Virus record (IMG/VR): IMGVR_UViG_3300010883_011181 | Span: 1-23,817 of that record | Strand: one strand, 5' to 3' | DNA from: a virus | DNA: 23,817 nucleotides | Part shown: piece after piece, positions 203-18,199 of the stretch | How positions within the stretch are numbered: the stretch's first letter is position 1 | How the letters are laid out: the number at the start of each line of letters is the position of its first letter | Program-made: the position numbers and the translations under genes | Notes under the pieces: generated by a model | The model's input: the letters and a program-made list of their open reading frames with translations, nothing else | Databases searched by the model: none | What the model was told of the DNA's origin: nothing

Positions 203-220
203 ATATAGGAGAATTTGAGA

Positions 221-673: not shown

Positions 674-909
674 TAATGGTTCGTGACACCGGCGAAGAAT
701 TTTTTGACCAGAGTGTGGTAATAGGTGAATTATTTAATCATGGATTTGAGTATAATAAAGACTATATTATTATGGTAGTTCCTAATATTGTAAACATTAC
801 TTATGGTAGAGATGTAGGATACAAAATCGAACAGGAAAAACTGTCTAGTGATATTGAGTCTATTTCTGCCACCAAGATTCGGGCCAATGCTGGATATAAC
901 CCTGTATAA
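565..909 (+). CDS. HxGH nucleotidyltransferase (cytidylyl-/adenylyltransferase superfamily)
   Basis: Two signature motifs of the nucleotidylyltransferase alpha/beta-phosphodiesterase superfamily are present: GRYQPWHKGHTELF near residues 12-25 (HxGH, binding the nucleotide triphosphate) and ISATKIRA near the C-terminus (ISSTKIR-type). Such enzymes transfer NMP from CTP or ATP to a phosphorylated substrate such as phosphocholine, glycerol-3-phosphate or NMN; the substrate is not readable here. At 114 aa it is a minimal single-domain version. ATG 565 is preferred because the PTVQMLGRYQPWH segment looks like the conserved start of phage homologues; ATG 592 is an alternative. It overlaps the kinase by 109 nt and its 3' end overlaps the convergent APH-like gene by 50 nt. 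It may work with that kinase (phosphorylate, then activate with a nucleotide). Confidence 0.8.
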   Translation: MDRRKPTVQMLGRYQPWHKGHTELFKRAHRKTGQVVIMVRDTGEEFFDQSVVIGELFNHGFEYNKDYIIMVVPNIVNITYGRDVGYKIEQEKLSSDIESISATKIRANAGYNPV

Positions 910-1477
910 CTGAAACAGGTTTATCGGGATTAGGTTTTTTTAATCGAAGGTTATATGAGTGACAAAGAGCAATTTTATCAAGAGTTTTGATTTTATCAAA
1001 GTTCAGATTATTTCCAGTCGAACAATTGTAAAGGAAGATTAGTTTTTTCAATCCAGTCCAACCAATCCATCTACGAATCATTCTAAGTTCCCAATGCGGG
1101 TCACCTATACATTTTTTGTCCCAATCAATAAGACCTTGAAGCTTTTTATCTTTGACTATCACGTTTTTATACCATAAGTCACCATGTATTAAAGTGTTTT
1201 CTGATAATGTATCCTTTATTTCATCAAATTCTTTTATTGCCTCTTCGCAAAATCTTTCATTGTCTGATGGGGGGTGTTTTCTTAATTTATCTACTGTTTC
1301 GTGCATGAGAGATTCATTTATATTAGGAAAAGCAAAAACTATATATTTTAATTCTAATTCATGAATTTGAACTAAGAGAGAAGAAAGGTCAGAAACAAAC
1401 TCTTGACTTTCATTTCTTTTTACCATATGTTGTCCATCTATCCAGTCCCCACTTATCATATCTAGTACTGGAACCAT
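860..1477 (-). CDS. APH/choline-kinase-like protein lacking the N-lobe
   Basis: The catalytic core of the aminoglycoside phosphotransferase/choline kinase fold is clear: HGDLWYKN at residues 98-105 (Brenner-type catalytic loop with Asp100 and Asn105) and IDWDKKCIGDPHWEL from residue 117 (metal-binding Asp). These kinases phosphorylate small alcohols or sugars. The protein is 205 aa, whereas family members are usually about 260-350 aa. The N-terminal lobe with the ATP-binding lysine is absent, because the sequence begins at the hinge-like PVLD segment. The ATG directly follows an in-frame TGA and has GAGGA about 10 nt upstream, so the short form appears to be the real gene product. It is the third gene of a minus-strand operon, overlapping the upstream sulfotransferase-like gene by 16 nt. 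Activity is uncertain without the N-lobe. Confidence 0.75.
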   Translation of the reverse strand: MVPVLDMISGDWIDGQHMVKRNESQEFVSDLSSLLVQIHELELKYIVFAFPNINESLMHETVDKLRKHPPSDNERFCEEAIKEFDEIKDTLSENTLIHGDLWYKNVIVKDKKLQGLIDWDKKCIGDPHWELRMIRRWIGWTGLKKLIFLYNCSTGNNLNFDKIKTLDKIALCHSYNLRLKKPNPDKPVSVIQGYIQHWPESWWQK

Positions 1478-2148
1478 GCTTCAATTTCCTCATAGTTTGT
1501 AAATATATTTTTATAATCTGGATTATTAATAATTTCTATACCATTAGCTTTTATATAATCTTCATAGATAATGTCTTTTTTTCTAGGAAACATTTTTTCT
1601 AGATCTTTAGTAAAGGTCTCTATCTTCATAAATTTATCAAAATTTTCTTTGGTTGCTGTAAAAGAGTTTGGTTCTGGTATTTTCCTTTTCTTATTATAAT
1701 CAGAAAATTCTCTGTTTGTACCAGAATATTCTTTTCTACTAGTTTCTTCAGCAACTACTCTAAAACAAAATTGGGATATTTTATTTTTATTATGTAACCA
1801 AATAAGTGGGAAATTAGATAAGATTTTATATGCGGTATCTAATTTTTCTTCATAGGATAAATCTTTATCCTCTATCGTATAGGATAATTGTAACGGCATA
1901 CATTTTATAATAAAGTTTTTATTATTTTTAAGGTGTAGAAGTCTTTTGCTTCGTTCTTTATTGGTTATTAGATTTTCATGTATTGTATAGTCAATGGTTA
2001 CTGGTGAAGTTTTAAACCCATCATAATGAATTTTTTTCATTCTACCAAACCACTCTTTTCCATTATCAAGATTCATAGTTTCGCTTAAATGTTTTAGAAT
2101 ATAAAATGAACCAGAACGAGGAGTACACACTAAACAATGTCTATTCAT
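1462..2148 (-). CDS. Sulfotransferase-like protein, divergent paralogue
   Basis: The 228-aa product begins with the 5'-phosphosulfate-binding loop of PAPS-dependent sulfotransferases: TPRSGSFY at residues 9-16, close to the PRSGST consensus, directly after a first beta strand. The second PAPS-contact region is recognisable (WLHNKNKISQF, 117-127), but the Arg and Asp seen in the neighbouring paralogue (WLYRKDVLSQF) are both Asn here (120 and 122), so cofactor binding may be altered. Start ATG 2148 is chosen over upstream in-frame codons because AAGGA lies 7 nt before it and it overlaps the upstream gene's stop (ATGAATAG). Both paralogues end in a similar F-x-N-Y-[DE]-[QE]-I-x-x-W-F tail. The acceptor is unknown. 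Confidence 0.7.
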   Translation of the reverse strand: MNRHCLVCTPRSGSFYILKHLSETMNLDNGKEWFGRMKKIHYDGFKTSPVTIDYTIHENLITNKERSKRLLHLKNNKNFIIKCMPLQLSYTIEDKDLSYEEKLDTAYKILSNFPLIWLHNKNKISQFCFRVVAEETSRKEYSGTNREFSDYNKKRKIPEPNSFTATKENFDKFMKIETFTKDLEKMFPRKKDIIYEDYIKANGIEIINNPDYKNIFTNYEEIEAWFQY

Positions 2149-2773
2149 TGAACCATCCTTTAATTTGATCATAATTTTTAAATTTAGTTTTATAGTTAAT
2201 ATCAAGTGGAAGAGTTAATGTCAAGTTATTTTTTTCCTTGTCATACATATCCCACCACGCCCAACAATCCAGATTATAAATAATTTCTTCTGGATCATTT
2301 AGAAAATCTTCAAATGCTATTAGGGGCTCGCCTTCTTCTTCTTCACCATATTTTTCATATAAGTTCCAAAACTCATGTTGTTTTAGTTGAAATTGTTCTA
2401 ATTCATTTAATGTTGCAGTGAGTGAGTTATCAGGTATATCTGGGCGATCTCTTATGTCTGTTATGTGGTTTACCTTTGTTCGTAATCTAGTAATATGGCT
2501 CAAAAACTGTGACAGCACATCTTTCCGATATAACCACACACAGTTCATCTCTTGATATACCTGTTCATCCAACAGATAATGAGGTAGAATTTTTAAAATG
2601 TGTTGAGTTGAGGCAAATTCTGCATTATCAATATCCTTAAAATTATTATGTTTTAACCACGATTTTGAATCCGCTACACCATAATGGTTACATAAATATC
2701 TACGAAAGTAAGTTGATCCGCTTCTGGATGTGGAAACTATGCCTAACCGGCCCTTGTAAGGAGTTATCGTCAT
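2141..2773 (-). CDS. Sulfotransferase-like protein (Stf0-type PAPS-binding motifs)
   Basis: A 210-aa protein with the 5'-phosphosulfate loop STSRSGSTY at about residues 14-22 and a canonical 3'-phosphate motif WLYRKDVLSQF at 80-90 (Arg83, Asp85, Ser88), the pattern of Stf0-like sulfotransferases that move sulfate from PAPS to a hydroxyl or sugar. It is the first gene of a minus-strand operon: the downstream paralogue starts inside its stop codon. Start ATG 2773 places the P-loop-like strand at residue 10; a longer in-frame start at 2830 would run through the divergent GNAT promoter and gene. No Shine-Dalgarno is visible. Instead the octamer TATATATA sits exactly 5 nt upstream, suggesting a very short or absent leader. 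An APS-kinase-like gene 1.5 kb away could supply PAPS. Confidence 0.72.
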   Translation of the reverse strand: MTITPYKGRLGIVSTSRSGSTYFRRYLCNHYGVADSKSWLKHNNFKDIDNAEFASTQHILKILPHYLLDEQVYQEMNCVWLYRKDVLSQFLSHITRLRTKVNHITDIRDRPDIPDNSLTATLNELEQFQLKQHEFWNLYEKYGEEEEGEPLIAFEDFLNDPEEIIYNLDCWAWWDMYDKEKNNLTLTLPLDINYKTKFKNYDQIKGWFNE

Positions 2774-2778
2774 AGAAA

Positions 2779-2786
2779 TATATATA
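2779..2786. promoter_or_regulatory. Candidate bidirectional late-type promoter (palindromic TATATATA)
   Basis: Only 18 bp separate two divergent start codons. In their exact centre is TATATATA, one mismatch from the T4 late octamer TATAAATA and identical on both strands. There are 5 nt on each side before the ATG at 2773 (minus) and the ATG at 2792 (plus). The same 5-nt spacing follows a perfect octamer at 19482-19489. No other promoter or ribosome-binding site fits in the gap. This is inference from position and similarity; AT-rich DNA makes such octamers common. Confidence 0.4.
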
Positions 2787-2791
2787 CCGAT

Positions 2792-3280
2792 ATGAAATGT
2801 GATATTTGTACCTTTGAAGATATTTTCCATATTTGGGACAAAGACTTGTGGCCCAATAGAGTAAGTAAAATTGAATCTAGAAGTTCTTTATTCTGGGATA
2901 GTCGTTTATGGGAAGGGTTTGGTAACGTATCTATAACAAAGAAACAAAAAGAAATTTGGAAATATGAACCAACTTTCTTTTGCATAAGAGATAATGATAA
3001 AATTATAGGAGTTAATAGTGGGTTTAGAACAGAAAATAAAGTCTATCGTTCCAGAGGATTATACGTTAGTAACTTATATAGATGTAAAGGACTTTCCCAA
3101 AAACTACTTGAAGCAACCATTCAACAAGGAAAACAAGAAGGATGCTCTTGGATCTGGAGCTTACCACGAAAAACAGCTCTCTCATCGTATAGTAAATCGG
3201 GGTTTTATAAGGTTGGAAATTGGATAGATGAAGGCGTTGAATTTGGGCCTAATTGTCTCGCAATAAAACAACTATTATAA
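2792..3280 (+). CDS. GNAT-family N-acetyltransferase
   Basis: A 162-aa single-domain GNAT. The acetyl-CoA-binding core is visible around YRSRGLYVSNLYRCKGLSQ (near residues 85-103), where the RxxGL segment takes the place of the (R/Q)xxGxG/A pyrophosphate loop, followed by the helix KLLEATIQQGKQEG and the YSKSGF motif typical of the last GNAT strand. GNATs transfer acetyl from acetyl-CoA to an amine; the acceptor is unknown. The N-terminal IWDKDLWPNR segment resembles GNATs of other marine T4-like phages as I recall them. It is divergent from the sulfotransferase operon, and its TAA stop overlaps the late promoter of the neck genes (3276-3283). No Shine-Dalgarno precedes its ATG. Confidence 0.78.
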   Translation: MKCDICTFEDIFHIWDKDLWPNRVSKIESRSSLFWDSRLWEGFGNVSITKKQKEIWKYEPTFFCIRDNDKIIGVNSGFRTENKVYRSRGLYVSNLYRCKGLSQKLLEATIQQGKQEGCSWIWSLPRKTALSSYSKSGFYKVGNWIDEGVEFGPNCLAIKQLL

Positions 3281-5909: not shown

Positions 5910-6416
5910 ATGGTGAAAAAACTTGATAAAGAACTTGGTGTAGTAGATGTTGATAAAAATCAATGGCCATCTGGTTTTGAGCTCGGTGTACCATTCGAAG
6001 GCCCCGACGCGACGGCCTCGGATTTAGAAATTGCAGGGGTTGCCCCTTTCGAATCTGATGAAAATACAGTTCCCCAAAAATCAAAAATTAGTCGCTATTC
6101 AACAGAGTTAACGCAGGAGAATGATGTAGATGATGACTACAAATACCAAAGAGAGAACTTTTATAATCTTGTTGAAAGGGGTACAGATGCGATTGATGGA
6201 ATACTTGAACTCGCAAAGGAAGGCGAGCACCCAAGAGCATACGAGGTTGCTGGAAATCTTATCAAACAAGTCGCAGAAGTTGCCGAGAAATTAGGTGATC
6301 TACAAGAGAAGATGAGGAAACTTAAAGAGGTTCCTAATACTGCTCCTAAGAATGTTACCAATGCATTATTTGTTGGTAGTACAGCGGAGTTGCAAAAATT
6401 AATTAAAGGTAAGTAG
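5910..6416 (+). CDS. 16: Small terminase subunit gp16 (T4-like)
   Basis: 168 aa, close to T4 gp16 (about 164). The conserved central region reads YKYQRENFYNLVERG, then AIDGILELAKEGEHPRAYEV, with a long amphipathic helix (IKQVAEVAEKLGDLQEKMRKL) and the VTNALFVGSTAELQKL tail, all typical of T4-like gp16, which forms a ring that selects and regulates packaging of concatemeric DNA by gp17. ATG 5910 has TAAGGAG 5 nt upstream. The N-terminal part contains a short GC-rich patch (about 5998-6045, including an AGGGG-TTG-CCCCT hairpin) and a repeated V-x-PFE motif. Its partner gp17 is not adjacent: 8.8 kb of accessory genes separate them. Confidence 0.9.
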   Translation: MVKKLDKELGVVDVDKNQWPSGFELGVPFEGPDATASDLEIAGVAPFESDENTVPQKSKISRYSTELTQENDVDDDYKYQRENFYNLVERGTDAIDGILELAKEGEHPRAYEVAGNLIKQVAEVAEKLGDLQEKMRKLKEVPNTAPKNVTNALFVGSTAELQKLIKGK

Positions 6417-6421
6417 TTGTT

Positions 6422-7426
6422 ATGAAACTTGAGTGGTTTACTCCACATTATATTCGTATAATGGCTCCTTCTAAAGATTCTAAAAATTATGATGAATGGG
6501 TGAGGAAATTAAAGCGATATCAGAGATTATGTACTAAATTTTTTTCAGTGTGTCTTGTTGATAGATTGGGAGAGTACAATTTTCTTTTTGAAACCCATTC
6601 TCAAGATACTATGATTCCCTTTGAGTATAAAAAAACAGATAGACTTGAAGATCTTTTATATGAAAGAGCATATGAATTAGCCAAGAAAAATGAAATTATT
6701 CAGTTTTTTTGGAGTGGTGGTATTGATTCTACAGCAGCATTATTAGTTCTTAAAGATGTGTGTCCTAAAGATCAATTTTTCATACAAATGACACCAACTT
6801 CTATTGAAGAAAATCCTTTAGTGTGGGAAAAGCTTGTCAAGAATCTTTCTCATAAAATTTATAAGGGCGAACATCTTTTTTCTGTAGCAAATACAAAATA
6901 TCTTGTAGTAGAGTGTGGTTCTGCTGATCAACTTTATAATTCAGCGACAAAGACGACAAAGCTATCGACAATGACAAATGTAAAACGAACTTGGTATATT
7001 AGACGAAGATTCGCATGTGGACATAGAAGATATCGTTTTTTTGCTCATTCTCCTCAACATCAATTAAAATTAGATAATATACAACCATTTTATGATTCAC
7101 CTGATATAGAACAATATTTTATGAATAAAATAATAGATGGTTCTTTAACATACACAGTAAGGGGGCAAGAGGATCCAAATCAAGATTTTACTTCTTCTAA
7201 ATGTGGTCCTATTTACAAAACAATGAAACAGGAATTGAGAGATATTTTAAGAGAGTTTGATAAAGATATGGGCGATAATTTATTGGGAGCATTATCATTG
7301 AGGCCTAATGAAAAATCTCTAGTACTTGCTCATGAAAAGGGAAATCCAAAATGGGGTGTTATGGCAATAACAGAGACAGGTAAAGTTATTCATTCGCTCA
7401 AAGTTAGAAGCAAAGAGGTGATGTAA
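6422..7426 (+). CDS. Asn-synthetase-like ATP-pyrophosphatase, subfamily A copy 1
   Basis: A 334-aa protein with the N-type ATP-pyrophosphatase PP-loop FFWSGGIDSTAALL (SGGIDST at 98-104), which binds the ATP pyrophosphate in asparagine synthetase-like enzymes that adenylate a carboxylate before amidation. There is no N-terminal glutaminase domain: no Cys2, and only ~95 unrelated residues before the loop. The second AsnB signature (GEGADELFGG type) is degenerate here, CGSADQLYNS at 165-174. The C-terminus ends in a small strand motif, GVMAITETGKVIHS, shared with the 10088 paralogue. The gene starts 5 nt after gp16 and abuts the next ATP-pyrophosphatase directly. A basic Arg-rich stretch (around 189-207) is unusual and might bind nucleic acid. 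Substrate unknown. Confidence 0.78.
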   Translation: MKLEWFTPHYIRIMAPSKDSKNYDEWVRKLKRYQRLCTKFFSVCLVDRLGEYNFLFETHSQDTMIPFEYKKTDRLEDLLYERAYELAKKNEIIQFFWSGGIDSTAALLVLKDVCPKDQFFIQMTPTSIEENPLVWEKLVKNLSHKIYKGEHLFSVANTKYLVVECGSADQLYNSATKTTKLSTMTNVKRTWYIRRRFACGHRRYRFFAHSPQHQLKLDNIQPFYDSPDIEQYFMNKIIDGSLTYTVRGQEDPNQDFTSSKCGPIYKTMKQELRDILREFDKDMGDNLLGALSLRPNEKSLVLAHEKGNPKWGVMAITETGKVIHSLKVRSKEVM

Positions 7427-8653
7427 TTGTCTAAAGTTGTTATTGCATTTAGTGACAAACATCTCCAAAGAATAATGAGTTTTTATAATCCTTTAGAGTT
7501 TGAAAAACATAGTTATGATGCTTCATATTATGCAAACATGCCAGAACAAGGTATACATCCATATACTTCACCGTTCTTTAGGGTTCCAGAATATTTTGAT
7601 AATTATCTTTATGCTTTAAGTTCTTTAGTACATTGTCCTGTACCATATGACCGTACTGAAGAATTTAATATGTTAAATTTTCATATAGACCCAATTCCAG
7701 AAGTAGATAAAAATTGGAATAGAACAATTGAAGAAGTTTTTATTGAACGAGCAGAAGAGATTTGGAATCTTAATAAACCAGTACGAGTTTGGTATTCTGG
7801 CGGAATAGATTCCACAGTAGTTCTTATAGCACTTCTTAGGACTAAGAAACCAGAACATGAACTAATAGTTTATCTCAGTGATTTATCTGTAAAAGAAAAT
7901 CCTTCTTTCTATGAAGTTCTTAAAAAAATGAATGATATTACCTTTCAGTGGAATGAGAGAAGTAACATATATGCTTTTGATAATTGGCGTGACAGTACAA
8001 TAAATGTAACAGGGGAAACAGGTGACCCTGTATATGGGAGTTTTGTAGTTGAACATCATATAGACGATGTAGATTCCCCTTGGAAAGATATGATAGAATG
8101 GAAAGATGCTCGATATATACTTAAAGATCAAGATTATAAAAAACCAAGATTTATGGAATTTGCAGAAAACTTTATAAAGAAGTGTCCATTTGAAGTTAGA
8201 ACTACTTTTGACTTTTCGTGGTGGTTAGCATTTTCCATAAAGTGGCAGTGGATAAATGCTAGAATATATGCTCAGTGTGATAATCCTTCTAATTGGCAAA
8301 ACATGATATCTTTTTATTCTTGTCCCGAAGTTCAAAAGTGGAGTATTGTCAATCATGATATGAAGCATAAAGGAACATGGAAGAGCTATAAATGGCCCTC
8401 AAAAGAGTTTATATATAATTATAATAAGGATGCTGATTATAGAGATAATAAAGTAAAAGAAAAAAGTTTACCTGATGCTGGAAGTTCACAAGCAGCGCAA
8501 AATATTCTTCTTATGACATCAGGGGAATATTATCAAAAGACAGAATATAAGAAATATGGAATTGGCGGATTGGACCCCGAAATGGCATTTTTAAATAAGT
8601 GGGATGTGTTCAATAAATCGTTATGGAAAAAATGGCAAAAGATAAAGTTGTAA
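7427..8653 (+). CDS. ATP-pyrophosphatase, subfamily B copy 1
   Basis: 408 aa. The PP-loop is VWYSGGIDSTVVLIALLRTK (SGGIDST at 124-130), preceded by the helix IEEVFIERAEEIWNL that all five paralogues share in some form. The position of the AsnB second motif is NVTGETGDPVYGS (193-205). The C-terminal half is subfamily-specific: a Trp-rich FDFSWWLAFSIKWQW segment, then WSIVNHDMKH, GTWK and YKWPSKEFIY, ending in KWDVFN and WKKWQK. I do not know a named family with this C-terminal half. The start is TTG at 7427, directly after the previous stop, with AGAGGTG 6 nt upstream. No glutaminase domain is present, so ammonia or another nucleophile would have to come from elsewhere. It overlaps the next copy by 31 nt. 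Confidence 0.75.
   Translation: MSKVVIAFSDKHLQRIMSFYNPLEFEKHSYDASYYANMPEQGIHPYTSPFFRVPEYFDNYLYALSSLVHCPVPYDRTEEFNMLNFHIDPIPEVDKNWNRTIEEVFIERAEEIWNLNKPVRVWYSGGIDSTVVLIALLRTKKPEHELIVYLSDLSVKENPSFYEVLKKMNDITFQWNERSNIYAFDNWRDSTINVTGETGDPVYGSFVVEHHIDDVDSPWKDMIEWKDARYILKDQDYKKPRFMEFAENFIKKCPFEVRTTFDFSWWLAFSIKWQWINARIYAQCDNPSNWQNMISFYSCPEVQKWSIVNHDMKHKGTWKSYKWPSKEFIYNYNKDADYRDNKVKEKSLPDAGSSQAAQNILLMTSGEYYQKTEYKKYGIGGLDPEMAFLNKWDVFNKSLWKKWQKIKL
7745..7828 (+). repeat. Near-identical 84-nt direct repeat in PP-loop region (other copy 9055-9138)
   Basis: The DNA around the PP-loop of the first two subfamily B genes matches over 84 nt with four differences, all synonymous (Lys AAA/AAG, Gly GGC/GGT, Ser TCC/TCT, Thr ACA/ACT). 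Flanking sequence is more divergent. This indicates recent duplication or gene conversion restricted to the catalytic segment. Confidence 0.85.
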
Positions 8654-9960
8654 TAGAACTAGGTGGTAGATTTGCGAATAGATTAGTTCGTTATTATAAT
8701 CCCCTTGAATTAGAACAACCACAACAGGAGTGGATACGAGACCCCATTCTTTCTGGCACTAATGTTTTAAATCCAAAAAATATCAAAGGGTGTAGGTCTA
8801 ATCAAGTATTTTGGTATAATAATATACCAGAGCCTGGCAAAAATCCATATTTTGGTATTGCTGATAGAGCTTATAGTTTATCTAGTCATAGAGAGGGTGA
8901 ATATTTTGGTAATTATATGAGAGTGCTCAGTGAATTAGTTAGATGTCCAATCCCCTATGATAGAACAGGTGAATTTAATGTTTATAATTATTTTATTGAT
9001 CCCATACCAAAAGTACCTCAAGGATGGAATAGAACTTTTGAAGAATTGGTTTTAGAACGAGCAGAAGAGATTTGGAATCTTAATAAGCCAGTACGAGTTT
9101 GGTATTCTGGTGGAATAGATTCTACTGTAGTTCTTATATCATTACTCAGAACAAAAAAACCAGAACATGAATTAATAGTATTTATGGGTGAACCCTCAAA
9201 AGTAGAAAATCCTATTTTTTTTGAGGTTCTTAAAAAAATGGATAATATTACAATTCAGTGGAACGATCCTAGTAATTTCTGGTCAATTGATAATTGGTGT
9301 GATGATTCAATAAATGTAACAGGAGAACCAGGCGATCAAGTATATGGAAGTTTTGTATTAGAAAATCATGAGGATGAAATAAATTCACATTGGTCTAATA
9401 TGTTACAATGGGAAGATTGTTGTTACATGTATAAGGAAGATGATTATAGACTTGATTATCACAGGCCAAGATTTATGGAATTTGCAGAAGAGTATATTAA
9501 AAAATGTCCATTTGAAATTAAAAATACTTTTGATTTTACTTGGTGGTTAGCATTTTCTATAAAGTGGCAATGGACTACAAGTTATATTCCATTTCATTTG
9601 GAAAACCCTTCTAATTGGCATAACATGATATCTTTTTATAATTTTCCAGAAATGCAGATGTGGAGTATTGTGAATCATGACTTGAAACATAGGGGGACTT
9701 GGAAAACATACAAGTGGCCCTCTAAAGAATTTATTTACGAATACAATAAGGATAATAATTACCTTAATAACAAAACTAAGGAAAAAAGTATACCGAAAAC
9801 AGTGTCAATGATTAACAAATTTGCACCCAACCATCTTTTAATGACTAGTGGTAAGTTTTATAAGAAGATAGATGATGGTTTAGATCCCGAAATATTGCGT
9901 TTAGACAAATGGGATATTTTTAATAAACCTGTGTGGAAAAAATGGCAGACGATGTTGTAA
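8623..9960 (+). CDS. ATP-pyrophosphatase, subfamily B copy 2
   Basis: 445 aa and the longest of the five. The N-terminus DKVVIELGG then NRLVRYYNPLE matches the other B copies but is followed by an extra ~45 residues (about 37-80) missing in copies 1 and 3. PP-loop SGGIDST at 162-168; second site NVTGEPGDQVYGS; then the B-specific FDFTWWLAFSIKWQW, WSIVNHDLKH, GTWK and YKWPSKEFIY, and the KWDIFN ... WKKWQ tail. The start may be ATG 8623 or ATG 8632; both lie inside the end of copy 1 (31- or 22-nt overlap) and neither has a clear Shine-Dalgarno, suggesting translational coupling. The stop is followed directly by a late promoter. Role: an ATP-dependent adenylation step inferred from the PP-loop; no substrate can be read. 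Confidence 0.75.
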   Translation: MEKMAKDKVVIELGGRFANRLVRYYNPLELEQPQQEWIRDPILSGTNVLNPKNIKGCRSNQVFWYNNIPEPGKNPYFGIADRAYSLSSHREGEYFGNYMRVLSELVRCPIPYDRTGEFNVYNYFIDPIPKVPQGWNRTFEELVLERAEEIWNLNKPVRVWYSGGIDSTVVLISLLRTKKPEHELIVFMGEPSKVENPIFFEVLKKMDNITIQWNDPSNFWSIDNWCDDSINVTGEPGDQVYGSFVLENHEDEINSHWSNMLQWEDCCYMYKEDDYRLDYHRPRFMEFAEEYIKKCPFEIKNTFDFTWWLAFSIKWQWTTSYIPFHLENPSNWHNMISFYNFPEMQMWSIVNHDLKHRGTWKTYKWPSKEFIYEYNKDNNYLNNKTKEKSIPKTVSMINKFAPNHLLMTSGKFYKKIDDGLDPEILRLDKWDIFNKPVWKKWQTML

Positions 9961-9963
9961 TTG

Positions 9964-9971
9964 TATAAATA
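9964..9971 (+). promoter_or_regulatory. T4-type late promoter TATAAATA (second ATP-pyrophosphatase/TRAP/gp17 unit)
   Basis: Perfect late octamer 3 nt after the stop of subfamily B copy 2. Transcription should begin near 9977, giving a leader of about 110 nt to the ATG at 10088. It would drive the A2 and B3 ATP-pyrophosphatases, the DctQMP transporter and, by read-through, gp17. Confidence 0.85.
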
Positions 9972-10020
9972 ACTCGAGCAGATAGGATATACTTTAGCAA
10001 GTAATAACCTTTAGTCTTAA

Positions 10021-10049
10021 AGAGACAATATAGTTAAGAGAGAGACAAT
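10021..10049 (+). repeat. AGAGACAAT direct repeats in the long 5' leader
   Basis: The 127-nt intergenic stretch 9961-10087 holds the late promoter, a weak CTTTA/TAAAG hairpin near 10011-10024, and two copies of AGAGACAAT with starts exactly 20 bp apart (10021-10029 and 10041-10049), followed by AGGA 6 nt before the ATG at 10088. The spacing puts the repeats on the same DNA face, as for a dimeric protein site, or they may act in the mRNA leader. No known element is recognised. Confidence 0.5.
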
Positions 10050-10087
10050 CTTTTTCTGCTCACTAAAAAATTGGACTAGGATATAGT

Positions 10088-11212
10088 ATGACTAAATTTT
10101 TAATGGTAAAAAAATCGTATAAAAATGCGTGGAAACGATATTTAAAAAATGAAAGCGGTGAATACGAAAATTTTTCGAAGGAATTTAAAGAAGAATTTCA
10201 TTTTAAGATTGAAGAAGAACAACAATATTTAAGAAAATATGCTAGACCGCATTATTGGTTTTTAAATGACCAGTTAGGAGAAAATGAATTTGTTGTTAAC
10301 ATGAGTGATGCTCATTTTAACGGTGCTGGTTTAAAATATGAATATACAAACAATCTCCCCTCCCTTAAAGATATTCTATTAGAAAGAGCTCAGAAAATTT
10401 CCAATATGGGTAAAAAGATTCAACTCTTTTACTCAGGTGGAATAGACAGTACAGCTGTACTTCTTGCTTTTTATGAAGTCTGTCCTAAAGATCAACTTGA
10501 AATTATTATGGCTGGGGGAGAACTAGCACCGAAAAATAATCCAAAAGCATTTAAAGATATAGTTCAACATTTAGATCATACTTTTACAGATTATCTTATG
10601 AGCGCTGCTGATTTAAGTCAACATGTTTATACTACAGGGTGTGAAGCAGATAGACTATTCGGTGCTGATGGATATACTCTGTTGATGGAACATGCTCAGC
10701 GAGATGGGGATGATTATAAAATAGATGAAGAGTCAGCGCCCACGACAGATTCACCAGAAAATTGGCAGTGGAATTGGGATAGGTGGTGGGGGATAACCAG
10801 ACATACCTACTTAACACAATCCTTTAGACTTCTATCAGACATTTCACAAGAAAAAATAGATATAGAAAATTATCAACCATTATTTTTTGATAAACGGGTA
10901 CAACAGTTTGCAATAAATTTGCATATTGATAAAGAGCATAAATGGTATAATTCAGGCGAAAGAGCAGATAAAGAACGGTATCGACAAGGTAAGATATGGA
11001 TACGGGATTTTATTTATGAAATGAGTGGCGATAGAGAATATGCTTATGGCAGTGGAAATACAAAGACTGCAGCAAAGGATTTTGATAAAAGAAAAGGAAG
11101 CGTTATGCCAATGGTCTTTAATGTTATTGCTATTACCGAAGACGGCACAATTGTTCATCATAAAAATATTATGGACTATATGAACGCTGATTGTTTAACT
11201 ATAGATGTATAA
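10088..11212 (+). CDS. Asn-synthetase-like ATP-pyrophosphatase, subfamily A copy 2
   Basis: 374 aa. PP-loop LFYSGGIDSTAVLL (SGGIDST at 116-122) and the clearest AsnB-type second motif in the set, GCEADRLFGAD at 184-194 (compare GEGADELFGGY), support an asparagine-synthetase-like synthetase domain that forms an acyl-adenylate. It shares VCPKDQ after the PP-loop and a final NVIAITEDGTIVHH segment with the 6422 copy, defining subfamily A. The first ~90 residues are a charged, Lys/Glu-rich region with no glutaminase motif. A Trp-rich insertion NWQWNWDRWWG occurs near residues 222-232. ATG 10088 has AGGA 6 nt upstream and a late promoter 116 nt upstream. It overlaps the B3 gene by 8 nt, repeating the A-then-B arrangement of the first cluster. 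Confidence 0.8.
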   Translation: MTKFLMVKKSYKNAWKRYLKNESGEYENFSKEFKEEFHFKIEEEQQYLRKYARPHYWFLNDQLGENEFVVNMSDAHFNGAGLKYEYTNNLPSLKDILLERAQKISNMGKKIQLFYSGGIDSTAVLLAFYEVCPKDQLEIIMAGGELAPKNNPKAFKDIVQHLDHTFTDYLMSAADLSQHVYTTGCEADRLFGADGYTLLMEHAQRDGDDYKIDEESAPTTDSPENWQWNWDRWWGITRHTYLTQSFRLLSDISQEKIDIENYQPLFFDKRVQQFAINLHIDKEHKWYNSGERADKERYRQGKIWIRDFIYEMSGDREYAYGSGNTKTAAKDFDKRKGSVMPMVFNVIAITEDGTIVHHKNIMDYMNADCLTIDV

Positions 11213-12407
11213 TTTGGATGATCCTCCACTGGATAAAGTAATTATAGCATGTGGTGCAGCGAATAAACGTCTAGTTCGACATTTTAATCCTTTAGACTTT
11301 GCAAAACCACAAGAAGAGTATACTGGTAGATTTCAACGAATACCAGAACGCTTTGATAATTATCTTTATGCATTGGGACAACTAGTAAATTGTCCCAATC
11401 CATATGATCGTACAGATCGTTTTAATATTTTAAATTATCATATTACTCCAATATGGCCTTTTCCTGATGGATGGAATGAAACATTTGAAGAAGTTTTTCT
11501 TCAACGTGCTGCAAGCATTTGGACAAAGAATAAACCTATCCGCTTGTGGTGGTCAGGGGGTATAGATTCAACTACCGCATTAGTAGCATTACTCAGAACA
11601 AAAAAACCAGAACATGAATTAATCGTGTATATGGGAGATCCTTGTGTAGAAGAAAATCCTAATATGTATGATAAGATTAAAAAAATGGATGATGTTAAAA
11701 TTCAATGGAATGATGCTAATAATATCTGGTCTTTCGATAATTTTACGGATGGTACTATAAATGTAACGGGTGAACCAGGCGATCCTTTTTATGGCTCCTA
11801 TGTTGTAGAAAATCATATTGATGAAATTAATAACCCTTGGACCGATATGCTTCAGTGGGAAGATATTAACCTTGTTGTTAAACCAGAAAATTTTTCAAAG
11901 TTTATGGAATTTGCTGAAATCTTCAATTCAAAATGTCCTTTCGAAGTTAAAACTGTTTTTGATTTTACATGGTGGTTAGCATTTGCTATTAAGTGGCAGT
12001 GGATAGTTGCTAGATTTTATCCCTTTATGGATAACCCATCTAGATGGCAAAATATGATATCATTTTACAATTGTGATACGATACAGTGGTGGAGTATTAT
12101 CAATCATGATCTAAAACACAAAGGAACATGGAAAACCTATAAATGGCCCTCAAAAGAATTTATCTATAATTATAATAAAGATGCTGATTATAGAGATAAC
12201 AAGGTAAAAGAACGGAGTATGCCTAAGACATTACCAAACCATCAGGGACATTATAATCTACATCTTCTTATGGCATCAGGAGAATATTTTAATCAAACAG
12301 AAGAAGAAGTTTATGGTATTAAGGGAATAGACCCCGAGCTCGCACTTTATCATAAGTGGGATATATTTAATGAAGATTTATGGAAGAAATGGAAAAAGAT
12401 GTTATGA
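11205..12407 (+). CDS. ATP-pyrophosphatase, subfamily B copy 3
   Basis: 400 aa, with all subfamily B landmarks: DKVIIACG at the N-terminus, PP-loop LWWSGGIDSTTALVALLRTK (SGGIDST at 117-123), NVTGEPGDPFYGS, FDFTWWLAFAIKWQW, WSIINHDLKH, GTWK, YKWPSKEFIY and the KWDIFN ... WKKWKK end. Its C-terminal stretch NYNKDADYRDNKVKE is identical to copy 1 but differs from copy 2, whereas around the PP-loop copies 1 and 2 are closest, a mosaic relationship. The start overlaps the A2 gene by 8 nt with no visible Shine-Dalgarno. Its stop overlaps the DctQ start (ATGA), so it is physically and probably translationally linked to the TRAP transporter. Confidence 0.76.
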   Translation: MYNLDDPPLDKVIIACGAANKRLVRHFNPLDFAKPQEEYTGRFQRIPERFDNYLYALGQLVNCPNPYDRTDRFNILNYHITPIWPFPDGWNETFEEVFLQRAASIWTKNKPIRLWWSGGIDSTTALVALLRTKKPEHELIVYMGDPCVEENPNMYDKIKKMDDVKIQWNDANNIWSFDNFTDGTINVTGEPGDPFYGSYVVENHIDEINNPWTDMLQWEDINLVVKPENFSKFMEFAEIFNSKCPFEVKTVFDFTWWLAFAIKWQWIVARFYPFMDNPSRWQNMISFYNCDTIQWWSIINHDLKHKGTWKTYKWPSKEFIYNYNKDADYRDNKVKERSMPKTLPNHQGHYNLHLLMASGEYFNQTEEEVYGIKGIDPELALYHKWDIFNEDLWKKWKKML

Positions 12408-12856
12408 TAACCCTAGTAAAATTTTATGCTTGGTTTATATTAGCAATAGTTCTATTAATTGTTTCCAATGTATTAGGTAGATATTTCTTTGATTTACGAT
12501 TTGATTTTGCAGTTGATGTTTCTTGGCAATTATATGGAATGTTAATTATACTAGGGGCAAGTTATAGTCTCGCAAAGGGTACTCATATAAGAACCGATAT
12601 CTATTGGAACCGTTTTTCAGATAAAACTAAAGCATTAATTGATTTGGGGGGATATTGTTTGTTCTTTCCTACTTTTGGTATCCTTTCTTATATTTCAGCA
12701 TTAGACACATATAAGAGCATTTTAATTAACGAAAAGAGCTCTGCAACCATGTCTCAATTAATAATATGGCCTTTGAAAATAGGGATAACTTTTGGTTTAC
12801 TTTTATTGTTATATCAAGGATTTATTGAAATGAGGAAATGCATTAAACGATGTTAG
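12404..12856 (+). CDS. dctQ: TRAP transporter small permease DctQ
   Basis: About 150 aa with four predicted membrane helices, the DctQ/YiaM size and topology: helix 1 ending in the conserved NVLGRYFF, helix 2 in WQLYGMLIILGASYSLAKG followed by THIRTDIYW (the family's G-x-H-[IV]-R-x-D signature), and two C-terminal helices. DctQ pairs with DctM in the inner membrane and docks the periplasmic binding protein in Na+-driven organic acid uptake. ATG 12404 forms an ATGA overlap with the preceding stop; an in-frame ATG at 12380 would add 8 charged residues encoded by the out-of-frame tail of the previous gene and is less likely. It overlaps dctM by 7 nt. A complete, intact gene. Confidence 0.9.
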   Translation: MITLVKFYAWFILAIVLLIVSNVLGRYFFDLRFDFAVDVSWQLYGMLIILGASYSLAKGTHIRTDIYWNRFSDKTKALIDLGGYCLFFPTFGILSYISALDTYKSILINEKSSATMSQLIIWPLKIGITFGLLLLLYQGFIEMRKCIKRC

Positions 12857-14106
12857 CGATTGTTATGTTGGTGTCAATGATATTGGGTATCTTTGTTGGT
12901 ATTCCTGTCAGTTTCACTCTTATATTTCTTGCATTAGGATTTGGATACGTCAGTATGGGAGAGAATGTTTTCGATCTCGCATACTATAATCTTGTCGGCG
13001 GGTTATCAAACGAAGTGTTTATGGCAATACCCATGTTTATATTCATGGGGTATATCTGTGAACGCGCAGGTCTAATAGAAGGTTTATTCGACAGTCTAAA
13101 AAAGATTACTGGAAATTTATATTTTGTTGTTATAGTTATCGCAGTTTTAATAAGTCTTGCTACAGGAGTTGTGGGCGCGTCTGTTACTCTGTTAGGAATT
13201 ATGGCAGCACCTCAAATGATGAGACTAGGTTATAATCCAAAACTAACTGCTGGAGTCATCGCTGGTGGGGGTTCTTTGATTATGATACCGCCTTCTGTGC
13301 CTCTTATTGTTATGGCACCGACCATGAATATTAGTATTATTGATTTGTATGCTGGAAGTCTAATACCAGGCCTGATGATTGCAGTAATGTATATTATATA
13401 TTGTTTTCTTGTTGATAAGACAGAGAAGCCCCCGACAGAACTTTCTATTAAAAATATTGGTAGAGCTCTTCTTGATATACTTCCACTTGCACTTCTTATA
13501 TCTGCCGTGTTGGGATCGATGCTGTTTGGACTTGCAACGTCTACTGAAGCAGGAGCATTTGGTGCGGTTGGTGCTTTATTACTTGCATGTAGGAAACTTA
13601 CATTTACTACTTTACAGGAAGCACTATTGAAAACATGTGATACGTCTGCTGTTGTGATGTTACTTGCAATTGCATCTACTATTTTTGGAGCAGTATTCAC
13701 TTCTTTGGGTGGAGATACAATTATAGTAAATTCACTTAATTCTCTACCCATACCACCTTGGGCTTTAGTTGGGTGTATATTAGCTTTATGTCATTTGTTG
13801 GGTTGGCCTTTTGAATGGCCTGTGGTAGTATTGGTATTTGTTCCAATATTTATGCCTGCTCTTGTTGCATCAGGCGTAGATATGTTATGGTTCGCAGTTT
13901 GTTTGGGTATTGTTATTCAGACTGCATATCTGACTCCGCCAGTTGCTCTAACGTCTTATTATTTGAAACAGGTAATGCCGGAATGGGATTTGAGTATGAT
14001 ATTTAAAGCAATGATGCCATTTATGTGGATACAGGTTCTTGCGGTTATTATATTGTTTTTCATACCCAGTATTGCAACTTGGCTTCCGGACCTACTAAAT
14101 AAATAA
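12850..14106 (+). CDS. dctM: TRAP transporter large permease DctM
   Basis: 418 aa, the usual DctM length (about 425), hydrophobic along its whole length with roughly a dozen membrane helices. Family motifs are present: FMAIPMFIFMGYICERAGL, the GVIAGGGSLIMIPPSVPLIV loop with the Pro-Pro-Ser that lies at the substrate/Na+ site region, MNISIIDLYAGSLIPG, a STEAGAFGAVGALLL half-repeat counterpart, and TAYLTPPVALTSYYL near the end. DctM is the ion-transporter-superfamily subunit that carries substrate with Na+. The start overlaps the dctQ stop, with GAGGAA 12 nt upstream. No frameshift or stop interrupts the gene, so it looks functional. It is followed by dctP after 36 nt. Confidence 0.93.
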   Translation: MLAIVMLVSMILGIFVGIPVSFTLIFLALGFGYVSMGENVFDLAYYNLVGGLSNEVFMAIPMFIFMGYICERAGLIEGLFDSLKKITGNLYFVVIVIAVLISLATGVVGASVTLLGIMAAPQMMRLGYNPKLTAGVIAGGGSLIMIPPSVPLIVMAPTMNISIIDLYAGSLIPGLMIAVMYIIYCFLVDKTEKPPTELSIKNIGRALLDILPLALLISAVLGSMLFGLATSTEAGAFGAVGALLLACRKLTFTTLQEALLKTCDTSAVVMLLAIASTIFGAVFTSLGGDTIIVNSLNSLPIPPWALVGCILALCHLLGWPFEWPVVVLVFVPIFMPALVASGVDMLWFAVCLGIVIQTAYLTPPVALTSYYLKQVMPEWDLSMIFKAMMPFMWIQVLAVIILFFIPSIATWLPDLLNK

Positions 14107-14142
14107 GAACAGTGAATTTATAAAAGATTGAAGGGGTTAATT

Positions 14143-15222
14143 ATGAAATCTATTTTAGCAGCATTCGTTGCACTTATTCTTACATCAACTACAGTTTTTG
14201 CAGATACGGTTATTCGTATTGCAAGCTCCTATCCCGCCATTAGTACTTTTAATGAACAAGCACAGTTTATCGCAGATAGAGTTAAAATTCTAACTGATGG
14301 TAAAGTCCAAATGGAAATTAAACCCGCTGGTGCTTTAGTTCCCGCTTTCCAAGTTCTTGATGCAACAGCATCTGGTGCTGTGGGGGGTGCGTGGACACAG
14401 AGTTACTATTGGGTAGGAAAGGATAAAACCCTTTCTTTATTTAATAGCCCTTTAGGTGGTCCATATGGAATGGATGGTATAGATTTTCTGGGGTGGATGT
14501 TTCATGGTGGAGGATTAGAGCTCTATCGTACATTTTATCAAGATGTATTGAAACTAGACGTAGTACCATTTCCTTCCATGCCCACACAGAATCAACCTTT
14601 GGGTTGGTTTCATCGTCCTATTAAAAACCTTGCAGATCTGAAGAACTTCAAGTGTAGACAGACAGGTATTAATGTAGAGTTGTATGCTCGTATGGGTATG
14701 CAGACTATTGGTATGCCGGGTGGTGAAATTCTTGCGGCTGGACAAAAGGGTGTAATTAATTGCGCTGAATTTGTCGGTGGGCTTGAGGATGAACGTCTAG
14801 GATTTCCTACCATCTGGAAGTACTACTATCTGAATAGTTTGCATGAACATTCTAATACTGGTGATCTTCTGATTAATGGTAAAGTTTGGAGAGGACTTAC
14901 TAAACAACAACAGACTTCAATTCGTTCTGCTGCATATGAATCCTATCTATGGTGGTTGACTTGGGTGCAAGCAGAAAATGGTAAAGCACTTGCACGAATG
15001 GTGAAGAAGCATGGTGTTAAGGTTATGCAAACTCCATCTGATATTCTAGTAGCAGAATTAAAGACTATAGATCAAATGTTTGTAGAGGAATCTGCAAAGA
15101 ACCTTTGGTTTAAGAGGGTTCTTGGCAGTCAGAAACGCTGGGCAAGAAAAGTAGTTCCTTATAAAAATAAAGCATTTACACCATATAGTTACGCTGCTGA
15201 ACATTATTGGGGTAATAAATAA
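14143..15222 (+). CDS. dctP: TRAP periplasmic substrate-binding protein DctP (2-oxo-acid/TakP-like clade)
   Basis: 359 aa with a clear Sec signal peptide (MKS followed by a hydrophobic core, cut after about residue 20 at VFA-DT), so the mature protein is exported to the host periplasm. DctP landmarks: KCRQTG near 170-175, containing the Arg (172) expected to pair with a substrate carboxylate, MPGGEILAAGQKGVINCAEF at 191-210, and DERLGF. The PGGEI...GVI-AE-[WF]-VG arrangement resembles the TakP/lactate-binding clade rather than the C4-dicarboxylate DctP, so 2-oxo or hydroxy acids are plausible substrates (inference). ATG 14143 is chosen because AAGGGG lies 6 nt upstream; an upstream in-frame TTG at 14128 lacks a site. 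gp17 begins 4 nt after its stop, tying it to the packaging gene. Confidence 0.9.
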   Translation: MKSILAAFVALILTSTTVFADTVIRIASSYPAISTFNEQAQFIADRVKILTDGKVQMEIKPAGALVPAFQVLDATASGAVGGAWTQSYYWVGKDKTLSLFNSPLGGPYGMDGIDFLGWMFHGGGLELYRTFYQDVLKLDVVPFPSMPTQNQPLGWFHRPIKNLADLKNFKCRQTGINVELYARMGMQTIGMPGGEILAAGQKGVINCAEFVGGLEDERLGFPTIWKYYYLNSLHEHSNTGDLLINGKVWRGLTKQQQTSIRSAAYESYLWWLTWVQAENGKALARMVKKHGVKVMQTPSDILVAELKTIDQMFVEESAKNLWFKRVLGSQKRWARKVVPYKNKAFTPYSYAAEHYWGNK

Positions 15223-15226
15223 GGCT

Positions 15227-16873
15227 ATGTCAGATCCTAATGTCTATCATGGCAATCCTAATCTTAAAGTAGCGCATATAGATCAAGAGTGGACAAAGGA
15301 GCGTATTGAAGAATATCAAAAATGTATGGAACAACCTCAATACTTCATTGAAACATATTTAAAAATTGTTTCTTTGGATGAGGGCCTAATTCCTTTTAAG
15401 ATGTATGATTTTCAAAAGGAAATTATAGGCACATTTCATAATAATCGGTTTACTATATGCAAATTGCCCAGACAGTCTGGAAAGTCTACAACAGTTATTG
15501 CATATCTACTTTATTATGTTTTGTTTAATGAAAGCGTAAATGTCGCAATTCTTGCTAACAAAGCATCAACAGCGCGGGACCTACTGTCACGCTTGCAATT
15601 AGCATATGAAAATTTGCCTTCGTGGTTACAACAGGGAGTTATGTCATGGAATAAAGGTAGTTTGGAGCTGGAAAATGGTTCAAAAATTCTTGCTGCATCT
15701 ACTAGCGCTAGTGCTGTTCGCGGCGGTAGTTATAATATCATTTTCTTGGATGAATTCGCCTACGTTCCAGCTAATGTTGCTGAACAGTTCTTTTCCTCTG
15801 TGTACCCCACCATTACATCTGGTACAACTACAAAAGTTATGATCGTTTCTACACCGCATGGTATGAATATGTTTTATAGAATGTGGGTCGATGCTGAAGA
15901 AAAACGAAGTTCATATATACCAATTGAAGTACATTGGAGTGAAGTTCCAGGCCGAGATGAAGCTTGGAAAAAAGAAACTATATCTAATACATCTGAGTCT
16001 CAATTTAGTTCAGAGTTTGAATGTGAATTTTTAGGTTCTATTGATACTCTCATAACACCTGCTAAATTAAAAACATTAGCATATAGAGTACCTACACAAT
16101 CCAATGCAGGCCTTGATGTTTATGTGAAACCTATAGAAAATAATACGTATATGCTCACAGCGGATGTTTCCCGTGGAACTAAAAATGATTATTCTGCTTT
16201 TGTTGTTTTTGATATTACAGAAATGCCGTATAAAATGGTTGCAAAGTATAGGGACAATGAAATTAAACCACTAGTGTTTCCTGCTAAAATACATGATGTT
16301 GCAATGGCATATAATCAAGCATATGTGTTAGTTGAGGTAAATGATATAGGGGAACAAGTAGCAAACACTTTACAGTTTGACTTGGAGTATGACAACCTAG
16401 TTATGGCTTCTATGCGTGGTCGCGCAGGGCAAGTCCTTGGCGCTGGGTTCTCAGGGGGTAGAGCGCAGTTGGGGGTAAGAACCACTAAAACGGTTAAGAA
16501 GGTTGGGTGTTCAAATCTCAAACAAATGATTGAGGATAACAAATTAGTAATAGAAGATTTTGATACAATTTCTGAATTAACAACATTTATTGTAAAGGGT
16601 AGTTCGTTTCAAGCAGATGATGGATGTAATGATGATTTAGTTGCTTGTTTATTTATTTTTGGTTGGGCTTCAGATCAGACATATTTTAAGGAATTAACGG
16701 ATAATGATATGCGGCAAACTATGTTGAAAGAACAACATGACGCATTAGAACAGGATATGGCTCCATTCGGGTTTATTATAGATGGACTAGAAGATGATAA
16801 TATCGGTAATATGGTTGATGAATATGGCACAACGTGGAGTGCTGTAGTAAGAGACTATGAAACAGATTGGTAA
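15227..16873 (+). CDS. 17: Large terminase subunit gp17 (T4-like)
   Basis: The 548-aa packaging motor-nuclease has an N-terminal ATPase with Walker A RQSGKST (82-88), Walker B IIFLDE (Asp175 with catalytic Glu176) and the coupling-type VSTPHGMNMFYRMW segment, then an RNase-H-like nuclease with likely metal ligands Asp313 (TADVSRG), Glu370 (LVEVND) and Asp470 (CNDDLVACL). It pumps DNA into the prohead at the portal (gp20) and cuts the concatemer. T4 gp17 is 610 aa; this one is somewhat shorter. AATAAATA ends 5 nt before the ATG, while AAGG is only 2 nt away and too close to be a good ribosome site. Its stop abuts, tail to tail, the stop of the minus-strand TRAP permease. Confidence 0.95.
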   Translation: MSDPNVYHGNPNLKVAHIDQEWTKERIEEYQKCMEQPQYFIETYLKIVSLDEGLIPFKMYDFQKEIIGTFHNNRFTICKLPRQSGKSTTVIAYLLYYVLFNESVNVAILANKASTARDLLSRLQLAYENLPSWLQQGVMSWNKGSLELENGSKILAASTSASAVRGGSYNIIFLDEFAYVPANVAEQFFSSVYPTITSGTTTKVMIVSTPHGMNMFYRMWVDAEEKRSSYIPIEVHWSEVPGRDEAWKKETISNTSESQFSSEFECEFLGSIDTLITPAKLKTLAYRVPTQSNAGLDVYVKPIENNTYMLTADVSRGTKNDYSAFVVFDITEMPYKMVAKYRDNEIKPLVFPAKIHDVAMAYNQAYVLVEVNDIGEQVANTLQFDLEYDNLVMASMRGRAGQVLGAGFSGGRAQLGVRTTKTVKKVGCSNLKQMIEDNKLVIEDFDTISELTTFIVKGSSFQADDGCNDDLVACLFIFGWASDQTYFKELTDNDMRQTMLKEQHDALEQDMAPFGFIIDGLEDDNIGNMVDEYGTTWSAVVRDYETDW

Positions 16874-18199
16874 TTAAAACCACACAAATATAAACGGCAT
16901 AATGTATAACGGCCATGCAATGTACATGGATGTTAATGCGGTTATTATTGGATTTGTTTTCGCAATCTTGGCTGCAGTAAATGATGATAATGCTACAGGT
17001 GGAGTTATCATAGACAATACCCCAAAATATAATACAAATAAATGTGCGTATATATCAGTTATTCCCGCTTCAATCAGAGCGGGGGCAGCGACTATTGCGA
17101 CAAGTAGATAGGTAGAACTTGTCGGCATACCCATTCCTAGAATAATACACAGTATTGCAACCATTATCAATAGTAATATGGAATTTCTCCCAGACACTAT
17201 GTTTAGTATGGATGTTATTTGAAAACTTAGCCCCGTCTGGTCCATAACACCAATTATAAGCCCAATTGCTGCACTTAGTATAATAAGACTATACATTGAA
17301 TCTGATATAGATTTGATGAGATTTGTCTTGACAGAATTTTTATATTCTGGTATAGTGTCTAAGGATACTTTGGGTGTTGTTAAAAGTAGTAAAGTATAAA
17401 ATGCAATCGCCGGGGGTATCGCAACCCAAACCACTTCCCAATAAGAAATCATAAGAATTTCTGCCATTAGAAATGCTGCAGCACCCATAACAGGCGGCAT
17501 CAATTGTCCACCAGTAGATGCAACCGCTTCATATGCTGCTGCTCTTACTTTTGTATATCCACACTGAATCATCAGAGGAATAGTCAGTTGTCCCGTACTC
17601 ATTACATTTGCGACTGCACTACCAGAAACACTACCAAATATAGCAGAGGATAAAATTGCTACACGCCCAGGCGACTTAACACGTTTAAGAATAAATCTAA
17701 TCATTATATCAATAATACCCAGACGTACTAAAATTTGTCCTGCTAGAACAAATAAAAATACAATACCACACATAATAGAAATAGACATACCAAGCATAGC
17801 GGTGTTATCTATTACAATATGAGATATAAGGTCCAGATATTTGATATCCAGAAATAGGGGATATGTAAGAAATCCTAGAAGAATTACCCCAAATGCTTTA
17901 CCACTGGTAAGATAACAACTTATTAATACTAAAATGCAAATCGGTACGGATATAAAATATAATAGTAATTTTTCGTAATTTGCATATTCCGTTAGATATG
18001 GATAATAAAGGAATAATAATATACCTATTATGAGCAAAGGAAGATCAAATTTTTTAAATGCGTATCCTAGAGCGGATAATAGTATCAATATAAACCATTG
18101 TTCATCAAAAATAGGGTATCCGATATAAAAATCAATATCGGATACACCTAGAATTAAAAATAATGGTAAGAGATACTTACTCAAGTTTAAGGATATCAT
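16874..18199 (-). CDS. Compact fused-type TRAP permease (TAXI system)
   Basis: 441 aa, almost entirely hydrophobic. It carries the conserved core of fused TRAP permeases (DctQ and DctM in one chain): IFGSVSGSAVANVMSTGQ near 187-203, YEAVASTGGQLMPPVMGAAA near 223-241, LGMGMPTSSTYLLVA near 360, and YFGVLSMITPPVALSSF near the end. The first ~130 residues are additional helices in the position of the DctQ-like part. Fused permeases are usually above 600 aa, so this one is strongly shortened in its N-terminal and inter-domain parts but keeps both half-repeat signatures. It overlaps the TAXI binding-protein gene by 23 nt, and only a weak GGAG is seen upstream. It would form a complete uptake system with the TAXI protein. 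Intact reading frame. Confidence 0.87.
   Translation of the reverse strand: MISLNLSKYLLPLFLILGVSDIDFYIGYPIFDEQWFILILLSALGYAFKKFDLPLLIIGILLFLYYPYLTEYANYEKLLLYFISVPICILVLISCYLTSGKAFGVILLGFLTYPLFLDIKYLDLISHIVIDNTAMLGMSISIMCGIVFLFVLAGQILVRLGIIDIMIRFILKRVKSPGRVAILSSAIFGSVSGSAVANVMSTGQLTIPLMIQCGYTKVRAAAYEAVASTGGQLMPPVMGAAAFLMAEILMISYWEVVWVAIPPAIAFYTLLLLTTPKVSLDTIPEYKNSVKTNLIKSISDSMYSLIILSAAIGLIIGVMDQTGLSFQITSILNIVSGRNSILLLIMVAILCIILGMGMPTSSTYLLVAIVAAPALIEAGITDIYAHLFVLYFGVLSMITPPVALSSFTAAKIAKTNPIITALTSMYIAWPLYIMPFIFVWF

Follow-up and report, generated by a model that had tools for sequence, protein, structure and literature searches.

Five tandem stand-alone AsnB-type genes next to TRAP transporter genes in a marine T4-like virus

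The IMG/VR virus record IMGVR_UViG_3300010883_011181 (positions 1 to 23,817, the whole stretch analysed, here referred to as the window) carries five consecutive genes for stand-alone PP-loop proteins between the terminase genes gp16 and gp17, named A1, B1, B2, A2 and B3 after the two subfamilies to which they belong, followed by the genes of a tripartite ATP-independent periplasmic (TRAP) transporter. The locus raises the question of which chemistry these proteins perform, on which substrate, and whether A and B act together. The reading we favour, at a probability of about 0.5, is that A1-B1-B2-A2-B3 is an expanded AsnB-type cassette inserted with a 2-oxoacid-type TRAP transporter at gp16/gp17, encoding amide ligases that are expressed late and adenylate carboxylates, with TRAP-linked acids as substrates. 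Of this reading, the type of fold, the motifs, the lack of a glutaminase, the selection and the gene order could be observed directly.

Two subfamilies of AsnB-type proteins

A sequence-only reading of the window had described five PP-loop genes in A-B-B-A-B order and without glutaminase domains, which was confirmed; A1 (6422..7426), B1 (7427..8653), B2 (8623..9960), A2 (10088..11212) and B3 (11205..12407) are unbroken, tightly packed open reading frames on the plus strand, each with the SGGIDST PP-loop, a loop that is invariant in the B alignment. B1 uses a TTG start right after the stop of A1, B2 overlaps B1, and B3 overlaps both A2 and dctQ. The start of B2, earlier placed at 8623, could instead be at 8632.

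The proposed division into two subfamilies holds in a tree of 50 proteins, where A and B form separate clades with a support of 100. B1, B2 and B3 make up one clade (support 94, pairwise identity 57-62%) and thus look like a local expansion. A2 groups with the core members of A and A1 sits on a very long branch, with only 30% identity between the two; since the motifs of A1 are also eroded (GSADQLYNS compared to the usual G-x-EADRLFG), the label "two A genes" conceals a large difference. The ratio of nonsynonymous to synonymous substitution rates was 0.20-0.26 for the B paralogues and for A2 compared with its relative in locus L001, with synonymous sites partly saturated, which indicates that the B copies and A2 are selected genes, A2 being under purifying selection, while A1 was too diverged to judge. 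The second motif reads GEPGDPxYG in B and GxEADRLFG in A, compared to SGEGSDE in AsnB. An AsnB-like second motif had been suggested as a trait of subfamily A and is indeed present there, but B carries it as well, in the form G-E-x-G-D-x-x-Y/F, so that it does not set A apart, and the idea that B lacks it was dropped. When the A and B profiles are compared they align over nearly their full length (probability 99.7, E 8e-26), revealing one superfamily rather than two unrelated PP-loop types.

Both profiles also match a profile of full-length AsnB, made of full-length viral AsnB and E. coli AsnB (at 94 and 92). The predicted structure of B3, built from 31 sequences, has a predicted local distance difference test (pLDDT) score of 90, and the top 12 PDB entries matching it are all of AsnB type, with Z-scores of 14.2 for beta-lactam synthetase (1mc1), 12.8 for TsnB9, 12.2 for human ASNS and 11.6 for E. 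coli AsnB, carbapenam synthetase falling between the last two; the next family is GMP synthetase (Z 9.6), and LarE has a Z near 8. The A2 model is weaker (pLDDT 64.5) but ranks the same families and has likewise AsnB-type structures as its top 12 PDB entries. A and B both belong to the AsnB type, an enzyme class that is itself known, and the earlier assignment to ATP-dependent synthetases therefore stands on fold and profiles.

Family searches with Pfam, NCBIfam and PHROG gave no family at curated score for the five proteins, only weak PP-loop matches to phrog_424 (PAPS reductase), phrog_1550 (QueC) and TIGR00268 (LarE), the latter at best with 18.6 bits compared to a cut-off of 150 bits. A profile search of PDB sequences with A gave a weak match to nitrile synthetase (E 0.2), and the same search with B gave matches to SusG only, which were judged to be chance and discarded. 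Among phage isolates A1 and A2 had no match and B3 a single weak one, annotated as MnmA. The search for class II glutaminase found neither a PF13537 match nor an MC start in the window, where PF00117 is also absent. Neither of these two families was found in the relatives of 88.8 kb and 115 kb, and as both records are incomplete the absence of a glutaminase from the genome is no more than likely. Class I and II searches were otherwise negative, the exception being the full AsnB genes of record G003.

The products of AsnB-type enzymes are asparagine, beta-lactams, lasso peptides and nitriles. With E. coli AsnB and human ASNS (PF00733 together with a GATase domain) the A and B proteins share the PP-loop SGG[IL]DS, the second G-x-G/A-D motif, the fold of the synthetase domain and putatively the C-terminal Lys loop, but they lack the N-terminal glutaminase and stay below the PF00733 cut-off, and B has in addition a Trp-rich insertion and tail. 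Beta-lactam and carbapenam synthetases, which contain the best fold match for B and use a non-ammonia amine on an AsnB-type fold, keep a glutaminase-like N-terminal domain, unlike B, at ~13% identity. Full-length viral AsnB genes (L086, L087, L046 and L040) occupy the gp15/gp16 and gp16/gp17 sites of related viruses, often beside a small B, but carry GATase_7 with Cys2, which the window copies do not. Two phage "asparagine synthase" proteins in BFVD, A0A8S5PBV1 and A0A6J5LYZ2 (365-398 aa), are of stand-alone length with a template modelling score of ~0.7 to B3, though only ~20% identical.

TRAP genes and putative late promoters

The three-part TRAP set downstream of B3 is intact, with DctQ, the small membrane subunit (12380..12856, PF04290), DctM, the large membrane subunit (12850..14106, PF06808), and DctP, the solute-binding protein (14128..15222, PF03480), all on the plus strand and above cut-off. 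The DctP has a signal-peptide-like N-terminus and is in PDB closest to 7ug8, a ketoacid-binding protein, and to 2hzk, which we take to be the 2-oxoacid binder TakP. The sequence-only reading had linked the array to an imported acid, and the linkage was found again outside the window; three independent arrangements, i.e. the window, L024/L032 and record G001, have a full dctQMP beside A/B genes. When ~80 B loci were mapped, a DctP-family protein (PF03480) was located near B in 20 of them (12 distinct full-length proteins), in 17 immediately before B and often sharing a stop/start junction with it or having ends that overlap. This DctP-like protein begins MKTIRWVLAHEP, and by inspection no signal peptide appeared even when the frame was read back to the previous stop, so it should remain in the cytosol. 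Judging from the family it would keep the arginines with which TRAP binders hold a carboxylate. The protein at L035:7057-7998 and 11 other distinct signal-less members match phrog_31178, a family of unknown function.

Concerning expression, the T4-type late-promoter consensus TATAAATA occurs 7 times in the window compared to 4.5 expected, which is unremarkable, while 3 sites lie wholly inside its 428 noncoding bases compared to ~0.36 expected. One lies upstream of A2 (9964..9971, plus strand), within the single true intergenic gap of the cluster (9961-10087), and the other two lie upstream of gp18 and the minus-strand block. In L035 and L024 the same sequence is found ahead of the DctP-like gene and also ahead of gp13. 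The noncoding placement suggests that there are likely two late transcripts, gp13..gp16-A1-B1-B2 and A2-B3-dctQMP-gp17, and late expression of the cassette is likely as predicted from these consensus sequences.

Active sites, pairing and proposed function

In the B alignment K333 is invariant and K335 nearly so, within an NKxKExS loop whose putative counterpart in E. coli AsnB is RQKEQFS, and no conserved residue is lost from the three B copies of the window. A Lys in the loop YAYxxGKT is found in most of 33 A proteins, that of L001 included; A2 has Asn324 at this position (AAT codon near 11057), A1 is without both the Lys and the EAD motif, and the A proteins of L009/L010 also lack this Lys. 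Broken active sites in all copies had been named as an outcome that would speak against a working array, and here the B copies look intact while A is changed. In the window virus A may thus either use another residue or have a changed or non-catalytic role, and a catalytic A-B partnership is doubtful there. A subfamily A relative without a PP-loop is located close to dctQMP in record G001 (L104:1989-2693, minus strand).

Whether A and B always occur together had been put up for checking; 18 of 30 records hold A without a B-level match, most of the records being short fragments, and 12 hold both. Of the largest records those of 115 kb and 88.8 kb contain A and B, and the third (64.5 kb) A only. 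Direct A-B adjacency outside the window was seen in L009/L010 and L024/L032 only, A-A pairs at gp15/gp16 are common and B often has no A nearby. A and B are thus often in the same genome but are not an obligate pair; the A-B order as a rule was dropped, and the suggestion that A before B implies joint work is weakened.

Asparagine-synthetase-like enzymes adenylate carboxylates and can use free ammonia, with asparagine, peptide amides, lactams and nitriles among their products (PMC13060819). For the array we infer adenylation, an amide product, an acid substrate and late timing. Each working copy would bind ATP with its SGGIDST loop, and the carboxylate would be adenylated and then attacked by an amine to give an amide or a further product, e.g. 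a lactam or nitrile. As a glutaminase domain is missing, either free ammonia or an amine that the substrate already carries would supply the nitrogen. The acid is probably related to the ligand of the TRAP proteins, dctQMP in the window and the signal-less TRAP-type binder before B in relatives, and A1 and A2 are possibly altered or regulatory copies. A more specific version, a viral "capture and ligate" system in which TRAP-type binders, among them a cytosolic form without its signal peptide, pass a specific organic acid on to stand-alone AsnB-type ligases that are co-translated, the amide being used late in infection, is put forward as a tentative and rather unlikely extension.

Several observations weigh against the proposal of amide ligases on TRAP-linked acids. 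No window copy reaches the PF00733 cut-off, and at E 0.01 still only 1 of 31 B rows and 0 of 10 A rows match. Foldseek of B3 against PDB gives E-values of only ~1e-3, with LarE listed after carbapenam and beta-lactam synthetases and not far behind, so the AsnB assignment is founded on the Z ranking, the profile match to full-length AsnB and the motifs. The PDB match spans the synthetase core and leaves the Trp-rich C-terminal part of B unexplained, the putative correspondence of the lysine to the AsnB loop comes from a loose sequence alignment, and both A proteins of the window are without the conserved Lys. Many B relatives (the 330-residue group and the L014/L019/L025 group) are without a TRAP gene in the vicinity, which confines the link to a subgroup, and TRAP may be mere shared cargo.

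That the TRAP genes are unrelated cargo of a hot spot is part of an alternative in which the same AsnB-type chemistry acts on a macromolecule or glycan, such as a tail fibre, a capsid decoration or a host surface polysaccharide. The late, structural-operon position is consistent with this, as is the surrounding of A, where many genes are flanked by a conserved gene of unknown family on one side and by sulfotransferase-like/kinase genes on the other, genes for carbamoyltransferase, radical SAM and Asp/Asn-hydroxylase proteins are found nearby, and a Trp halogenase is the neighbour in two arrangements (L001; G002 and G040-G042). The recurrent neighbour of B is however a carboxylate-type TRAP-binding protein and no glycan enzyme, and together with the three dctQMP arrangements this makes a macromolecular target possible but unlikely. 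A heteromeric synthetase with B as catalyst and A as a degenerate or regulatory partner, a modified form of the model in the sequence-only reading, would agree with the adjacency in the window and the two other arrangements, with the loss of the Lys in the A proteins of the window and L009/L010 where most A proteins keep it, with the A relative lacking a PP-loop and with the presence of both families in the two largest records, but the records with A alone, though mostly fragments, and the common A-A tandems render it improbable. Chemistry of other PP-loop enzymes, i.e. sulfur transfer (LarE/MnmA-like), PAPS reductase-like or QueC-like nucleotide chemistry, perhaps in DNA or tRNA modification, could be suggested from the only sequence matches being the weak ones to phrog_424, phrog_1550 and TIGR00268, from LarE in the Foldseek list and from the phage match annotated as MnmA. 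By Z, AsnB-type structures are clearly above LarE and GMP synthetase, the second motif resembles that of AsnB, as the Lys loop putatively does, and no QueC-type C-terminal zinc-binding cluster of CxxC was seen in the five proteins by inspection, and such chemistry is accordingly improbable.

Genome context, distribution and significance

The source is a marine T4-like virus, its 23.8 kb window showing the gp13-to-gp20 order with a gp20 that matches the T4 portal family. The insertion is bordered on the left by the small terminase gp16 (5910..6416, plus strand, phrog_445) and on the right by the large terminase gp17 (15227..16873, plus strand, phrog_2), whose nearest isolates are Methylophilales phage Melnitz and Pelagibacter phage HTVC008M. 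Rfam and tRNA searches gave no matches, and a reading of the array as a defence system was dropped as PADLOC models matched none of the five A/B proteins.

At 860-2830 (minus) and 215-909 (plus) two sulfotransferase-like genes (weak PF13469) stand in tandem with an APH-like kinase gene, accompanied by a kinase gene and one resembling a cytidylyltransferase, a block seen again upstream of gp13 in relatives. Between gp17 and gp18 (16874-19139, minus) lies a second TRAP pair, of TAXI type, consisting of a DctM-like permease and an NMT1-like binding protein, and in relatives this interval holds an ATP-binding cassette (ABC)-type permease and an NMT1-like protein in its place.

Among 2.9 million viral contigs the B query found 95 relatives, of which 80 were kept, and there were 29 A loci. 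Among ~85,000 genomes two cellular B relatives were found, in an alphaproteobacterial metagenome-assembled genome and a Kaiserbacteria chromosome; in the latter the B relative and another SGG-type PP-loop gene are ~2 kb apart (L107:7842-8939 and 10923-11792). The usual place of B is between gp16 and gp17; A lies upstream of gp13 or at gp15/gp16, where A-A pairs are frequent. Where B is of the short 330-residue kind, QueC-like PP-loop genes and full-length AsnB with Cys2 are often found at the gp15/gp16 site. HTVC008M likewise has metabolic cargo in its gp16/gp17 gap, but there it is a 2-oxoglutarate (2OG)-Fe(II) oxygenase and a Trp halogenase and no AsnB-type genes. With A, B, full AsnB, other PP-loop enzymes or a halogenase as cargo in relatives, the interval appears as a cargo hot spot; the longest other A/B run in the mapped loci is three genes (B-A-B in L024) compared to five in the window. 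Trp-halogenase family genes adjoin A at L001:8068-9537 and L102:6617-8065, the latter in the order halogenase, ThyX, A; a halogenase is absent from most A records, and its position beside A would fit a tailoring pathway. A family of ~100-residue proteins without Pfam match is also found beside A/B and AsnB genes (L035:715-1056, L010:9123-9416, L087:6213-6569, L024:9193-9492 and L104:1697-1996).

In the open-access literature, subscription journals being outside the coverage, no papers were found on viral TRAP or AsnB-type cassettes and no published assay, and neither the two families nor the five-gene array nor a signal-less TRAP binder coupled to an AsnB-type ligase appears to be described in the searchable open literature. 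The study reveals two glutaminase-less viral families that occupy fixed genomic positions in ~100 marine viral contigs, with a subgroup tied to acid-binding proteins. If the proposal is true, ocean phages would run amide-forming chemistry on acids of the host or the environment. The coupling of a signal-less transport-type binder to a ligase offers a direct means of identifying the substrate.

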